A stretch of 64,000 nt of DNA from assembly GCA_904420175.1 (NCBI GenBank), contig CAJFUF010000013.1:1-64000 (forward strand). Direction: 5' to 3'. A model generated the notes under the pieces. The model worked only from the letters and a program-made list of their open reading frames with translations, made no database searches and was not told the DNA's origin. This DNA is from Candidatus Schneewindia gallinarum (GTDB lineage: Bacteria; Bacillota; Clostridia; Oscillospirales; Ruminococcaceae). Position numbers and translations under genes: made by a program. Within the stretch, counting starts at the first letter, position 1; every line of letters starts with the position of its first letter. Shown piece after piece: positions 54,730 through 62,407 of this stretch.

Positions 54730-56634
54730 TTAATCAAGCTCCAGCGCGCCGGTATATAGCTGGTAATAGGTACCCTTCAGGGCAAGCAGCTCCTCATGGG
54801 TGCCGCGTTCAATAATCCGGCCGTGATCCAGCACCATGATGGCGTCGGAATTTTTGACCGTGCTCAGCCGGTGGGCAATGACGAATACGGTGCGCCCGGT
54901 CATCAGCGCATCCATACCCCGCTGGACGATGGCCTCCGTCCTGGTGTCGATGGAGCTGGTGGCCTCGTCGAGGATCATGACGGGCGGGTCAGCCACTGCC
55001 GCACGGGCAATGGCCAGCAGCTGCCGCTGGCCCTGGGACAGGCTGGCGCCGTTACCGGACAGCGGCGTGTCGTAGCCCTTCGGCAGCCTTGTGATAAAGT
55101 CGTGTGCGCCTGCCAGCTTTGCGGCGGCAATACATTCCTCATCACAAGCATCCAGTCTGCCGTAGCGGATGTTGTCCATCACGGTGCCGGTGAACAGGTT
55201 TGTGTCCTGAAGCACCACGCCCAGGCTGCGGCGCAGGTCAGCCTTTTTAATCTTGTTGATGTTGATTCCGTCATAGCGGATTTTTCCGTCCGCAATGTCG
55301 TAGAACCGGTTGATGAGGTTGGTGATGGTGGTTTTGCCTGCGCCGGTGGAGCCGACGAAAGCCACCTTCTGCCCGGGCTTTGCGTACAGCGACACGTCAT
55401 GCAGTACGGTTTTGCCCTCCTCATAGGCGAAGTCCACATTGAACATGCGCACATCGCCCTGAAGCCGGGTATAGGTAACGGTGCCGTCGCTGTGGGGATG
55501 CTTCCAGGCCCACACATTGGTGCGCTCCTCACACTCCACCAGCTGGCCGTCTGCCGTTTCTTTTGCGTTGACCAGCGTCACATAGCCGTCGTCCGTCTCA
55601 GGCTGCTCGTCGATTAGTTCAAAGATACGCTTTGCGCCGGCGAGCCCCATGACCACAGGGTTAATCTGGTTGGAGACCTGGCTGACGGTGCCGGAGAACT
55701 GCTTTGTCATGTTTAGGAACGGCACCACAATGCTGATGCTGAAGGCAAGCCCGGAGAAGCTGACATTGGTGGCCCCGCTAAGCAGCAGGATACCGCCCAC
55801 CAGGGCGACCACGACATACAGCACGTTGCCGATGTTTAACAGAATCGGCATCAGGATATTGGCATAGCGGTTGGCAAGCCGTGCATTGGAAAACAGCGTG
55901 TCGTTGATAGAGTCGAACGCCTTTTGCGCCTCCTCCTCGTGGCAGAAGACCTTGATGACCTTCTGGCCGTTCATCATTTCCTCAACGAAGCCCTCCGTCT
56001 GTGCCAACGCCTTCTGCTGGCGCATGAAGTACCGCGCGGAGTGGCCGCCCACCTTCCGGACGACCAGCACCATGAGGATCACCCCGACAACCACAACCAG
56101 GGCCATCCACAGGCTGTAGTACATCATAATGGACAACACGGAAATTGCGGTGACGCAGGAGATCATCAGCTGCGGAAAGCTCTGGGAAATCATCTGACGC
56201 AGCGTATCAATATCGTTGGTGTAGTAACTCATCACGTCGCCGTGGTTATGCGAATCAAAATATTTAATGGGCAGGTCCTGCATGCCGTTGAACATCTTTT
56301 CACGCAGCTTTGCAAGTGAGCCCTGAGTGATGTAGGCCATCAGCTGGTTGTAGGCAATGCCGGCCAGCAGGCTGATGACGTAAAAGGTTGCCAGGATTCC
56401 CACCAGTCCCAGGATATGGCCGGACACGGAGGCCCAGTCGCCGGTCTGCCAGCTTTGCTCCACAGCGGCAATTACGTTTTGCAGGAAGATGGAGGGGATG
56501 GAGCTGACAATGGCGTTAATCAGGATGCAGATGATGGCCACGGGAAGCAGGACGGGGAAAAAGCCGAACAGTGTGCGGATAAGACGCCACAGCACACTTT
56601 TCCTGCTGCCCTTCTGTGTGGTTTTATTCGACAT
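54730..56634 (-). CDS. heterodimeric ABC exporter subunit, catalytic half
   Basis: 634 aa, six-helix membrane domain (about 20-330) plus nucleotide-binding domain. Walker A GSTGAGKTT, signature LSQGQRQ and Walker B MILDEATSSID with a normal catalytic Glu. An unusual insert of about 25 residues (VECEERTNVWAWKHPHSDG) precedes the NBD. The ATG at 56634 with AGGTG upstream is preferred over the GTG at 56643. Overlaps the partner gene by eleven bases. Confidence 0.93.
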   Translation of the reverse strand: MSNKTTQKGSRKSVLWRLIRTLFGFFPVLLPVAIICILINAIVSSIPSIFLQNVIAAVEQSWQTGDWASVSGHILGLVGILATFYVISLLAGIAYNQLMAYITQGSLAKLREKMFNGMQDLPIKYFDSHNHGDVMSYYTNDIDTLRQMISQSFPQLMISCVTAISVLSIMMYYSLWMALVVVVGVILMVLVVRKVGGHSARYFMRQQKALAQTEGFVEEMMNGQKVIKVFCHEEEAQKAFDSINDTLFSNARLANRYANILMPILLNIGNVLYVVVALVGGILLLSGATNVSFSGLAFSISIVVPFLNMTKQFSGTVSQVSNQINPVVMGLAGAKRIFELIDEQPETDDGYVTLVNAKETADGQLVECEERTNVWAWKHPHSDGTVTYTRLQGDVRMFNVDFAYEEGKTVLHDVSLYAKPGQKVAFVGSTGAGKTTITNLINRFYDIADGKIRYDGININKIKKADLRRSLGVVLQDTNLFTGTVMDNIRYGRLDACDEECIAAAKLAGAHDFITRLPKGYDTPLSGNGASLSQGQRQLLAIARAAVADPPVMILDEATSSIDTRTEAIVQRGMDALMTGRTVFVIAHRLSTVKNSDAIMVLDHGRIIERGTHEELLALKGTYYQLYTGALELD

Positions 56635-58369
56635 CTTGATCACCTGCCTTGTTCTGGGAAGTATAGACTTCCCGATAGATTTCGTTGTTTTTCAGCAGCT
56701 CTTCATGGGTGCCGACGGCATTGATGGTACCGCCGTCCATGACAATGATGCGGTCCGCATCCTGGACGGAAGCAGTACGCTGGGCGATGATGATTTTCGT
56801 TGTCTCAGGGATGTACTGCCGGAACGCCTGCCGGATCAGTGCATCTGTCCGCGTATCCACTGCACTGGTGGAGTCATCCAGAATCAGGATTTTCGGTTTC
56901 TTCAGCAGCGCCCGGGCAATGCAAAGCCGCTGCTTCTGTCCGCCGGAAACGTTGGTTCCGCCCTGCTCAATATAGGTGTCGTAGCCCTTCGGGAACTGCT
57001 GGATGAACTCGTCTGCCTGTGCAAGGCGGCAGGCCTCCATCAATTCCTCGTCGGTGGCTTCCTTGTTACCCCAGCGCAGATTCTCCTTGATGGTGCCGGA
57101 GAACAGCTCGTTTTTCTGAAGCACCACGGCCACCTGGTTACGCAGCACCTCCAAATCGTAATTCTTTACGTCCACACCGCCCACTTTAACAGTGCCCTCC
57201 GTGGCATCATACAGGCGGGGGATCAGCTGAATCAGCGTGGACTTGGAAGAACCGGTGCCGCCGATGACGCCGATAATTTCACCAGAGCGGATATGTAGGT
57301 TGATGTTTGAAAGAGACATCCGCTCGGCCGTCTTAGAATATTTGAAGCTGACGCCGTCGAAGTCGATGGAGCCATCTTTCACCTCGGTTACGGGGTTCTC
57401 CGGGCTGTGCAGCGTGCTTTCTTCCTTAAGCACCTCGGTAATACGCTGTGCGGACTCGGTCGCCATGGTGATCATGACGAAGACCATGGACAGCATCATC
57501 AGGCTCATCAAAATCTGGAAGCTGTAAGTTAACAGCGCAGACATCTGGCCCACGTCCAGCTCCAGCCCGCGCGAGGTAATAACCGTGTAGGAGCCGAAAG
57601 ACAGCACAAACACCATCACCGTGTAGATGCAGAACTGCATCAGCGGGTTGTTGAAGGCGAGGATCCGCTCGGCCTTTGTAAAGTCGGCCCGGACGTTTTC
57701 TGCCGCAGCGTCAAATTTTTTCTTTTCGTAATCCTCTCTCACATAGGATTTGACCACACGCATGCCGCGGATGTTCTCCTGCACGGAGCTGTTCAGTGCA
57801 TCGTACTTTTTAAACACGCGCCGGAACAGCGGCATGGTTTTCTTCACGACCAGCGCCAGGCCGCCGCCCAATACAGGAATGGTCAGCAGGAAAATAAGCG
57901 CCATTTTCCCGCCCATGACAAATCCCATAACAAAGGAAAAGATCAGCATCAACGGGCAGCGGATGGCGGTACGCACGATCATCATGTACGCCATCTGCAC
58001 ATTGGTCACGTCGGTGGTCAACCGGGTGACCAGGCTGGACACGGAGAACTTGTCGATGTTTTCGAAGGAGTACCCTTGAATTTTGTAGAACATATCCTTG
58101 CGAAGGTTACGTGCAAAACCGCAGCTGGCTGTGGCGCAGGCAGAACCGGCCAATGCGCCGAAAGTCAGCGACAGCGCGGCCATTGCCAACAAAGCAATTC
58201 CATAGCCGATAATGACCTCAATGCCGCAGCCCGCCTTTATCTCATTGACGAGATTGGCGGTGACAAACGGAATGATACATTCCATCACCACCTCGCCCGA
58301 GACCAGGATCGGTGCGAGCAGCGACGGCTTTTTATACTCTCGGATACTTTTTGCCAGAGTTTTTATCAT
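56624..58369 (-). CDS. heterodimeric ABC exporter subunit, degenerate-site half
   Basis: 581 aa, same layout. Walker A GGTGSSKST, signature VSGGQKQR, but Walker B reads LILDDSTSAVD: the catalytic Glu is Asp. This asymmetry is known in BmrC/D and TM287/288-type heterodimers, where one ATP site is non-hydrolysing. Together the pair likely exports drugs or peptides. Overlaps the marR gene by four bases, so the repressor and pump are one operon. Confidence 0.93.
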   Translation of the reverse strand: MIKTLAKSIREYKKPSLLAPILVSGEVVMECIIPFVTANLVNEIKAGCGIEVIIGYGIALLAMAALSLTFGALAGSACATASCGFARNLRKDMFYKIQGYSFENIDKFSVSSLVTRLTTDVTNVQMAYMMIVRTAIRCPLMLIFSFVMGFVMGGKMALIFLLTIPVLGGGLALVVKKTMPLFRRVFKKYDALNSSVQENIRGMRVVKSYVREDYEKKKFDAAAENVRADFTKAERILAFNNPLMQFCIYTVMVFVLSFGSYTVITSRGLELDVGQMSALLTYSFQILMSLMMLSMVFVMITMATESAQRITEVLKEESTLHSPENPVTEVKDGSIDFDGVSFKYSKTAERMSLSNINLHIRSGEIIGVIGGTGSSKSTLIQLIPRLYDATEGTVKVGGVDVKNYDLEVLRNQVAVVLQKNELFSGTIKENLRWGNKEATDEELMEACRLAQADEFIQQFPKGYDTYIEQGGTNVSGGQKQRLCIARALLKKPKILILDDSTSAVDTRTDALIRQAFRQYIPETTKIIIAQRTASVQDADRIIVMDGGTINAVGTHEELLKNNEIYREVYTSQNKAGDQDVE

Positions 58370-58851
58370 GCCCTCTCTCTCCTCTCTTTTTCATTTAAAC
58401 CTGTGTCCGGTTTGCTGGCCTTCTGCTGATCATCCAGATTGTCGTACATCCGGACAGCCGTTTCAAGGAAAATGCGCCGCTGTTCCTCTGAAATTCCGTC
58501 CATCATGACAAGCTCGATTTCGCGGATAAACGCGCGTACCTGCGCATCCATCAGAACGGCCTTTTCTGTGGGGACCAGGCTTTTCAGACGGGCGTCATCC
58601 GGGACGCTCTCCCTACGGATCAGCCCGCTTTTTTCCATCAGGTTTAAGGTGCCGGTGGCGGTGGAGCGGCTCATTCCAAAGGCAACCTCCAAATCCCGCT
58701 GGAAAACGGGTCCACAGGAACGATGGTCAAGGATAAAGTGCAAAATCCTGCTCTGCACCCCCGTAATGCCCAGATTGGCAAGCGCGGCATTCATGCGCTT
58801 TTTTACCCGGTGCGACAGCTTGCTCACCCAGAAACCACAGTCATGTTCCAT
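58366..58851 (-). CDS. MarR family transcriptional regulator
   Basis: 161 aa winged helix-turn-helix repressor. NAALANLGITGVQSRILHFIL, QRDLEVAFGMSRSTATGTLNLMEKSGLIRRE and DDARLKSLVPTEKA match the family. First gene of the operon with the two ABC subunits; it likely represses the pump until a ligand binds. An inverted repeat sits at its promoter. Confidence 0.92.
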   Translation of the reverse strand: MEHDCGFWVSKLSHRVKKRMNAALANLGITGVQSRILHFILDHRSCGPVFQRDLEVAFGMSRSTATGTLNLMEKSGLIRRESVPDDARLKSLVPTEKAVLMDAQVRAFIREIELVMMDGISEEQRRIFLETAVRMYDNLDDQQKASKPDTGLNEKERRERA

Positions 58852-59444: not shown

Positions 59445-59473
59445 TTGACAGCCGGGGTGGATTATGTTACCCT
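59445..59473 (+). promoter_or_regulatory. probable promoter of the ABC-F transcript
   Basis: TTGACA (59445-59450), 17 bases, TACCCT (59468-59473). The -35 is perfect and the -10 weak. Divergent from the cold shock promoter. Confidence 0.5.
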
Positions 59474-59513
59474 TAAGGCAGAATTTTTGAAAGGGGAGAT
59501 GTCAGGGTGCGCA

Positions 59514-59537
59514 ATGTTTCTTGCCGGTAAGAAATGA
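59514..59537 (+). CDS. leader peptide MFLAGKK, candidate ribosome-stalling uORF
   Basis: ATG 59514 to TGA 59537 encodes MFLAGKK; an in-frame ATG at 59499 would give 12 residues. AGGG (59504-59507) is a possible ribosome site. The codons overlap the 5' arm (59517-59527) of the leader's main hairpin, so a stalled ribosome would open it. An alternative GTG frame at 59507 encodes MRNVSCR. Assignment is from position and structure only. Confidence 0.5.
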   Translation: MFLAGKK

Positions 59538-59691
59538 TGAGGGGCAGCAGTGCAGCGGCGGTATCCGCCCTGTTTTCCTGCGCCCCGGCAAGAAAGCGCG
59601 CCCTTCCATTAACCCGCCTTTTGGGACGTACCCACCCTGGATACGCCCCGCTGTGCCGATGCAGGAAAGCCGTGCGCTTTCCTGCATTTTT
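59517..59691 (+). promoter_or_regulatory. transcription attenuator upstream of the ABC-F gene
   Basis: Three mutually exclusive pairings: (1) TTTCTTGCCGG (59517-59527) with CCGGCAAGAAA (59585-59595); (2) a terminator, ATGCAGGAAAGC (59659-59670) with GCTTTCCTGCAT (59676-59687) plus T run; (3) an antiterminator, GAAAGCGC (59592-59599) with GCGCTTTC (59674-59681). Pairing 1 hides part of the antiterminator; translation stall on the uORF would free it and let the gene be read. The terminator ends just before the ribosome site GGAGGA. Confidence 0.8.
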
Positions 59692-59708
59692 GTTTGGAGG
59701 AATCAGCC

Positions 59709-61184
59709 ATGTCACAGTTACAAGTCAACCATTTAACATTTACCTATGAGGGAAGCTTCGACCCGGTGTTTGAGGACTGCTCTTTCCAGCTGGACACCAG
59801 CTGGCGGCTGGGCCTGACCGGACGCAACGGGCGGGGGAAAACCACACTGCTGAAGCTGCTGTGCGGGCAGTATGACAGCGGCGGCAGCATTATCACCGAT
59901 GTGCGGAATTTTGACTACTTCCCCTTTTCCGTGCCGGACGAAAGCCGGACGGTTTTGCAGGTGGCGGAGAGCCTGGCCCCCGACTGCCAGCAGTGGCAGC
60001 TGTGCCGGGAACTGGGGCTGCTGCAGGTGCCAGACCGGGTGCTGGAACAACCGTTTCAGACGCTCAGCAAAGGGGAACAGACCAAGGTTTTACTGGCGGT
60101 GCTGTTTGTCCAGCCTGGGCACTACCTGCTGATTGACGAGCCGACCAATCACCTGGATATGGAGGGCCGAAGGATGGTGGGGGACTACCTGCGGCGCAAG
60201 CAGGGATTTATCCTCGTCTCGCACGACCGGGCATTTCTTGACCGGTGTGTGGACCACATCCTGTTTCTCGGCCGGCAGGATCAGTTTGTGTGCGCGGGGA
60301 ACTTTTCCGCCTTTTGGCAAAACAAGCAGTACCGGGATCAGTTCGAACTGGCGGAGAATGAGAAGCTCAGCCGGGAAATTGCCCGGCTTTCGGAGGCGGC
60401 AGGCCGCACCGCAGGCTGGGCCGGGCGGGCAGAAAAGCAAAAAAGTGCCCGGAACTCCGGCCTTAGGCCGGACAGGGGATATGTGGGGCACAAGGCGGCC
60501 AAGGTGATGAAGCGCGCCAAAACCATTGAGCAGCGCAGGCAGAGAGCGGCCGAAGAAAAGCAGACGCTGTTACACAACATTGAGAAAACGGAGACGCTGA
60601 AGCTGTCCTGCCTGCCGGCAAAGGGAACGCTTGCGCAGCTGCAGGATGTTACCGTCTGCTACGGGCAGGCACCGGTCTGCGGGCCGGTATACCTCCGGCT
60701 GGAAGCGGGGATGCGCATGGCGCTGACGGGAAAAAACGGCTGCGGCAAGTCAAGCCTGCTTCAGCTGGTGCTGGGGCATCCCGTTCCCCATGAGGGGACA
60801 GTCCACAGGCAGTCCGGCCTTACCGTTTCCTATGTGGCACAGGACACCTCGTTTTTGCAGGGCAGCCTGTCCGCCTTCGCCGCCGGGCGCGGGGTGGACG
60901 AGACACAGCTGAAAACCATTTTGAGGAAGCTGGATTTTTCCCGTGAACAGTTTGAGAAGCCAATGGAAAGCTACAGCGGTGGGCAGAAGAAAAAGGTGCT
61001 GATTGCTGCCAGCCTGTGTGAAAGGGCCCAGCTGTATGTCTGGGATGAACCGCTGAACTACATTGACATCTATTCCCGTATGCAGATAGAAGAACTGTTG
61101 CTGGACTTCCAGCCGACCATGCTGTTTGTGGAGCATGACAGTGCTTTTGTGGAACGTGTGGCCACAGATGTGTTTTCTATGTAA
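59709..61184 (+). CDS. ABC-F ribosomal protection protein (Lsa type)
   Basis: 491 aa, two ATP-binding domains and no membrane part; such proteins enter the ribosome E site and dislodge lincosamide, streptogramin A or pleuromutilin drugs. First site: GRNGRGKTT (38-46), LSKGEQTK, LLIDEPTNHLD. Basic interdomain linker (about 210-290). Second site: GKNGCGKSS, YSGGQKKK, VWDEPLNYID. N-terminus MSQLQVNHLTFTYEGSFDPVF is Lsa-like. ATG 59709 follows GGAGGA. The drug spectrum is not predictable here. Confidence 0.9.
   Translation: MSQLQVNHLTFTYEGSFDPVFEDCSFQLDTSWRLGLTGRNGRGKTTLLKLLCGQYDSGGSIITDVRNFDYFPFSVPDESRTVLQVAESLAPDCQQWQLCRELGLLQVPDRVLEQPFQTLSKGEQTKVLLAVLFVQPGHYLLIDEPTNHLDMEGRRMVGDYLRRKQGFILVSHDRAFLDRCVDHILFLGRQDQFVCAGNFSAFWQNKQYRDQFELAENEKLSREIARLSEAAGRTAGWAGRAEKQKSARNSGLRPDRGYVGHKAAKVMKRAKTIEQRRQRAAEEKQTLLHNIEKTETLKLSCLPAKGTLAQLQDVTVCYGQAPVCGPVYLRLEAGMRMALTGKNGCGKSSLLQLVLGHPVPHEGTVHRQSGLTVSYVAQDTSFLQGSLSAFAAGRGVDETQLKTILRKLDFSREQFEKPMESYSGGQKKKVLIAASLCERAQLYVWDEPLNYIDIYSRMQIEELLLDFQPTMLFVEHDSAFVERVATDVFSM

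Positions 61185-61237: not shown

Positions 61238-62407
<1,170 letters not shown>

Follow-up and report, generated by a model that had tools for sequence, protein, structure and literature searches.

The window, a stretch of 64,000 nucleotides from Candidatus Schneewindia gallinarum, carries a gene for an ABC-F ribosome-protection protein of 491 amino acids, which is preceded by a structured leader of about 230 nt from promoter to gene. Over its full length the protein matches the NF000167 profile (ABCF_Lsa_all) better than any other family (648 bits, E 1e-194), and since this score does not reach the curated cutoff of 750 bits, we name the protein Lsa-type rather than Lsa. It also scores 439 bits against NF000355 (ribosomal protection-like ABC-F), above the cutoff of 380. 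Its best match among solved structures is Lsa(A) (7nhk, E 8e-123), and the closest named plasmid resistance genes are lsa(E) and lsa(B), at 54.5% and 53.5% identity, respectively. By analogy with Lsa(A) and Lsa(E), the protein would be expected to give resistance to lincosamides, streptogramin A and pleuromutilins. Directly downstream, and convergent with the ABC-F gene, lies a gene for a 389-aa collagen-like protein with long GPTGPTG repeats (61238-62407, minus strand). At 54730-58851, also on the minus strand, a MarR-like regulator is followed by two ABC exporter half-transporters (assigned by eye), possibly a second drug-export operon beside the ABC-F gene. The leader and its gene comprise the following features:

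59445..59473, plus strand: putative promoter (TTGACA, 17 nt, TACCCT), with an extended -10 TG at 59465-59466 and a weak -10 (3/6)
59490..59498, plus strand: ribosome-binding site of the uORF, AAAGGGGAG, 8 nt before GTG 59507 and in the register of GGAG/GAGG in alignment A1
59507..59530, plus strand: uORF GTG CGC AAT GTT TCT TGC CGG TAA, MRNVSCR-stop, at the invariant start column of A1
59505..59527, plus strand: 5' arm of P1 (segment A), the predicted anti-antiterminator, spanning the uORF start codon and the UUUCUUGC element
59541..59586 (approximate limits), plus strand: P2, an apical hairpin in the P1 loop, from folding and alignment
59585..59603, plus strand: 3' arm of P1 (segment B), of which 59588-59601 doubles as the predicted antiterminator 5' strand
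59658..59695, plus strand: predicted intrinsic terminator, with stem 59658-59670 (C) / 59676-59688 (D) and U-tract 59687-59695
59672..59685, plus strand: predicted antiterminator 3' strand (loop end and part of segment D), pairing with 59588-59601
59695..59700, plus strand: ribosome-binding site of the ABC-F gene, TGGAGG, directly 3' of the U-tract and outside the terminator
59709..61184, plus strand: Lsa-type ABC-F ribosome-protection protein, 491 aa, from profile scores and structure match

The promoter was missed by a promoter scan because its -10 scores below the cutoff; TTGACA-N17-TATAAT-like sequences are nonetheless seen by eye at the equivalent place in homologous leaders. An earlier note on this DNA had described a short ORF in the 5' arm of an 11-bp hairpin and had suggested energy folding as a check. 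The fold indeed reaches -106.7 kcal/mol (z -5.5), and none of 200 dinucleotide shuffles was as stable. The hairpin is present, with TTTCTTGCCGG (59517-59527) pairing to CCGGCAAGAAA (59585-59595), and is longer than described: below a 4-nt bulge it is extended by GGGTGCGC (59505-59512) and GCGCGCCC (59596-59603), so that the uORF start codon sits within the stem. The ORF itself proved to lie in another frame, as discussed below. The strong terminator that the note had placed against the ribosome site of the gene (59658-59688, with its U-tract and TGGAGG) stands as described, and the alternative pairing of GAAAGCGC with GCGCTTTC is likewise present, extending to a helix between GCAAGAAAGCGCGC (59588-59601) and GTGCGCTTTCCTGC (59672-59685) of 13 pairs and one mismatch. 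This B:D pairing is mutually exclusive with both P1 and the terminator.

Among 394 genomes of the order to which the window belongs, 102 carry an Lsa-type gene; homologous loci came from these, together with 80 loci from named genomes. The three pairings were put to a partner-swap test. It drew on 60 non-redundant leaders, all preceding Lsa-type ABC-F genes in genomes of this order or of other Clostridia, and compared the duplex energy of each leader's own segments with that of segments exchanged between leaders. Own partners paired better in A:B (z -14.2), C:D (z -19.2) and B:D (z -6.8), as well as in lower P1, which holds the start codon (z -13.7). When segments were exchanged only with the most similar leader, a control that retains the relatedness between leaders, the preference persisted for A:B (p 3e-8), C:D (p 7e-10) and lower P1 (p 8e-5), while B:D was not clearly above this control (p 0.057 and 0.28) because the B and D segments are highly conserved. 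RNAalifold found both-side changes in five of the eight core P1 pairs. As the 60 leaders had been chosen partly by the A element, the test was repeated on 45 held-out leaders, recovered with covariance model R1 mainly from the wider class and phylum and unused in building R1; own partners were again favoured (lower P1 z -7.9, A:B -8.2, C:D -13.1, B:D -4.3). The covariation that the earlier note had asked for in all three pairings is thus found in both sets, and this conservation lends strong support to its central claim, that the Lsa-type ABC-F gene is preceded by a ribosome-mediated transcription attenuator. A permissive search found a terminator-like hairpin in 155 of 170 leaders. A pause-like motif after P2, T[TC]TG[CT]T[AG][TC], occurs 17 times where about 3 are expected, and was set aside as it is missing in most leaders.

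Which small ORF would be read by the ribosome is decided by alignment A1, in which, across 53 leaders, the start codon is invariant and lies at a fixed distance from the conserved TTTCTTGC element. In the window this start-codon column (T18-G19) falls on GTG 59507, which has GGGGAG 8 nt upstream, with homologues in the same register. The distance from this start to TCTTGC is exactly +12 in 57 of the 60 leaders. The uORFs of relatives, such as MRNFSC, MINFSCK, MRHFSC and MSSISCR, give the consensus M-x-x-[F/T/I/V/L]-S-C-(K/R)-stop, which the window's MRNVSCR fits, and one of them (L193) has the same TGC CGG TAA ending as the window. The earlier note had instead read the leader peptide as MFLAGKK, from ATG 59514, and a sensing peptide of this kind, or MSGCAMFLAGKK from ATG 59499, would leave the rest of the attenuator unchanged. 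The MFLAGKK ORF is open, and AGGG lies 6 nt upstream of its ATG; however, among the 60 leaders only the window has an ATG in this frame, so ATG 59514 is without counterpart elsewhere, and the spacing from the GGGGAG would be 15 nt for ATG 59514 and 0 nt for ATG 59499. We therefore reject MFLAGKK as the leader peptide and regard either of these ATG starts as very improbable. A similarly small chance attaches to an amino-acid attenuator of the trp type, in which the Ser-Cys (or Arg) codons would sense scarce charged tRNA. Ser-Cys is in fact the most conserved part of the peptide in the 53 leaders, yet Ser is always TCT or TCC and Cys is TGC in 52 of 53, the very codons that pairing with GCAGGAAA calls for. 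In 18 leaders, moreover, the uORF stops after two or three codons (MK, MR, MI, MRK, MRN, MKK, MKL), before the element, and UCUUGC is retained outside the ORF; this count leaves out a nineteenth leader (L276), in which the start is probably wrong. The element is shifted by one base in L163, where it reads Leu-Ala, and reads Ser-Arg in L068 and L173, with pairing kept in all three, and the regulated gene is an ABC-F gene. Since the element persists beyond early stops and frameshifts, UCUUGC serves RNA pairing rather than the peptide, and a peptide-level function of Ser-Cys is ruled out by these leaders. For the attenuator read from GTG 59507, the early-stop uORFs that retain the element place the probable site of drug sensing at the start codon or close to it, the site suggested for vmlR and cplR as well.

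The leader occurs across many gut-type bacteria: a covariance model recovered it from some 140 genomes, almost always immediately upstream of an Lsa-type gene. In the 394 genomes of the order, R1 gave 80 matches, 69 of them at E<=1e-5, and about 66 of these 69 lie directly upstream of an Lsa-type gene (a count that includes one contig end and one decayed gene). Of the rest at this threshold, one lies at a contig end, one is an orphan leader (G296) and one is a leader in G211. This last (L238, G211:C16:28654-28777, minus strand), with uORF MIYVSC and a terminator, precedes a 575-aa half-size ABC exporter that is not an ABC-F protein. Three weak R1 matches (G031, G351 and G186; E 2e-4 to 8e-3) lack the leader anatomy and were taken as chance. 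In samples of the class and phylum most R1 matches again precede an Lsa-type gene, the exceptions including truncated lsa genes (L249, L250) and an orphan leader (L268). These three, with L239 and L240, have intact-looking leaders beside an lsa gene that is truncated, decayed or absent; it seems that the lsa gene has been lost repeatedly, with the leader staying behind. A further exception, L293, has a leader with uORF MIIFSCK followed by the gene of a different ABC-F protein, which shares 26% identity with that of the window. The leader is not peculiar to the window genome; it is one of a large RNA family, of which the leader of mobile lsa(E) is also a member.

The lsa(E) leader (NZ_KR936172, L299) matches R1 with 69.4 bits (E 6e-15) and has a uORF (MYNFSC), P1, the terminator and B:D all present. 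It is homologous to the leader in the window, from which it differs in being AT-rich and in a gap of about 160 nt between terminator and gene. The stretch from leader to gene occurs at >=99% identity in 110 of 111 matching plasmid records, 102 of which cover at least 80% of it; the records are mostly from Enterococcus, with Listeria and Staphylococcus also represented. A genome of the same phylum, 2.76 Mb in one contig (G689), carries a locus 93% identical to lsa(E) (L302, G689:C1:972000-985000), and the identity spans 2.3 kb, taking in the leader and 400 nt beyond it (about 800 nt upstream in another count). From this identity, the donor lineage of lsa(E) is likely to have been close to G689. 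By eye, a lincosamide-nucleotidyltransferase-like gene follows the lsa(E)-like gene in G689. We give about even weight to a broader proposal, that this is an unnamed RNA family of Clostridia and beyond, with a sensor reduced in places to a two-codon Met-Lys-stop, which moved together with lsa(E) from a clostridial chromosome to enterococci, Listeria and staphylococci and would thereby make lsa(E), a transferable gene of clinical resistance, drug-inducible. We found no description of an attenuator linked to transferable lsa(E), a weak negative, as the bracketed gene name is not searchable; our literature search likewise returned no relevant paper containing MRNFSC, MINFSCK or MRHFSC, which is again a weak negative.

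Two further lsa genes, lsa(B) and an lsa of Priestia, are attenuator-like in appearance and were excluded from the family, as neither gave an R1 match. Before lsa(B) (L300:1110-1290, and the same part of L301) the attenuator looks unrelated; it has a terminator and a candidate uORF of three codons, ATGATTTACTAA (MIY). In lsa(B), a Priestia lsa and some clostridial lsa genes, a second small ORF (MVLELDVTHELLRISR..., MSNLDTIVTHVILCISR, MNSAEQIVTHDSLRIVSVPFGEIYTE, MKNKDTLLTHDNLHIKP...) with a hairpin lies between terminator and gene (L300:1359-1440, L301:1353-1410, L236, L040, L098, L125, L140). A pairing of CCGACTTTG with CAAAGGAGG that accompanies this ORF could hide the ribosome site of the gene, and the ORF is perhaps part of a second, translational attenuator.

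We consider it highly probable that the leader in the window is a ribosome-mediated transcription attenuator, in which a ribosome stalled by drug at or next to the uORF start codon would free B to pair with D. In the absence of drug, ribosomes would pass the tiny MRNVSCR uORF quickly and P1 (A:B) would form behind them; with P1 formed, the terminator (C:D) would form and transcription would stop just before the ABC-F gene. A lincosamide, streptogramin A or pleuromutilin would hold the ribosome at or next to the start codon, where it would cover the 5' arm of P1 and leave B free as D emerges from RNA polymerase, and B:D would replace C:D so that the ABC-F gene is transcribed. What we infer here comprises the translation of the uORF, the stall, the inducing drugs, the read-through and the switch in cells. 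When a ribosome was placed on the lsa(E) uORF in silico, the folding optimum flipped entirely from terminator to antiterminator. In the window, with the ribosome footprint blocked, the full-length terminator fold (-70.6 kcal/mol) is more stable than the antiterminator fold (-62.5 kcal/mol), and only for a transcript in which D still lacks its last 4-8 nt is the antiterminator the optimum. Because the finished terminator is the more stable, the switch in the window would have to be kinetic, and equilibrium folding, which gave more than 30% antiterminator in only 14 of the 60 leaders, is unconvincing as proof of it.

Two accounts dispense with a sensing ribosome. In the first, the leader would act like a riboswitch with an incidental uORF and would itself bind the drug or some other ligand, as a long, conserved and structured leader ending in a terminator might suggest; the 3' flank of P2, which is UUUUGUUGUGCC-like, is also partly conserved among relatives. 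The best conserved features, however, are the start codon, the ribosome site and their spacing, while the apical loop is highly variable in length and sequence, and Rfam 15 at gathering score has no match over the leader in the window or 20 relatives, so that we hold direct ligand binding to be a slim prospect. Slimmer still is the chance that an inert terminator of an upstream transcript, surrounded by incidental structure, is simply read through constitutively. Drug dependence is a prediction here, which would allow such an account, but covariation of alternative, mutually exclusive pairings would be unexpected in an inert terminator, as would the strict tie to one gene family across many genera.

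The ribosome-mediated attenuator favoured here closely resembles systems whose attenuation logic is proven. In Bacillus subtilis, vmlR has a 219-nt leader with a three-codon uORF in the first, anti-antiterminator hairpin, a terminator and an antiterminator; it is induced by lincosamides and pleuromutilins, and start-codon stalling has been proposed (PMC9226507). Its uORF is MIN, with MRK also working, less well, and MRK is among its natural variants (PMC9226507). It differs from the window in that MIN falls outside the M-x-x-x-S-C family, in the ABC-F subfamily, and in having its ribosome site sequestered in a fourth hairpin, whereas that of the window is free after the U-tract (PMC9226507). 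The cplR leader of Clostridioides difficile is, like that of the window, clostridial, with a uORF in a 5' hairpin and a terminator adjoining the ABC-F start codon, but its uORF is MR[I/M], its gene belongs to the ARE1 subfamily, and its ribosome site lies inside the terminator, which adds translational attenuation (PMC10201436). In both systems lincosamides and pleuromutilins are thought to stall ribosomes early (PMC9226507, PMC10201436). A short uORF has also been predicted by uORF4u before the Lsa-type gene lsaA of Enterococcus faecalis; its consensus is MAGN, and the comparison made here covers the gene type and the uORF (PMC10201436).

Sequence conservation therefore gives strong support to the view that the leader is genuine, is conserved widely and belongs to a known kind, the ribosome-mediated attenuators of ABC-F resistance genes. 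Ribosome-mediated attenuation of ABC-F genes has been known in a few cases, and the uORF differs from one to the next. In the present family, homologous leaders are shared by a large part of the clostridial Lsa-type genes and by transferable lsa(E). The natural variants, which run from seven codons to two, suggest that the leader can do without the peptide past its first residues but not without the RNA pairing, and they make the start-codon stalling model directly testable. The leader family also predicts that lsa(E) is drug-inducible; if this is true, resistance due to lsa(E) may be under-read by tests performed without induction.
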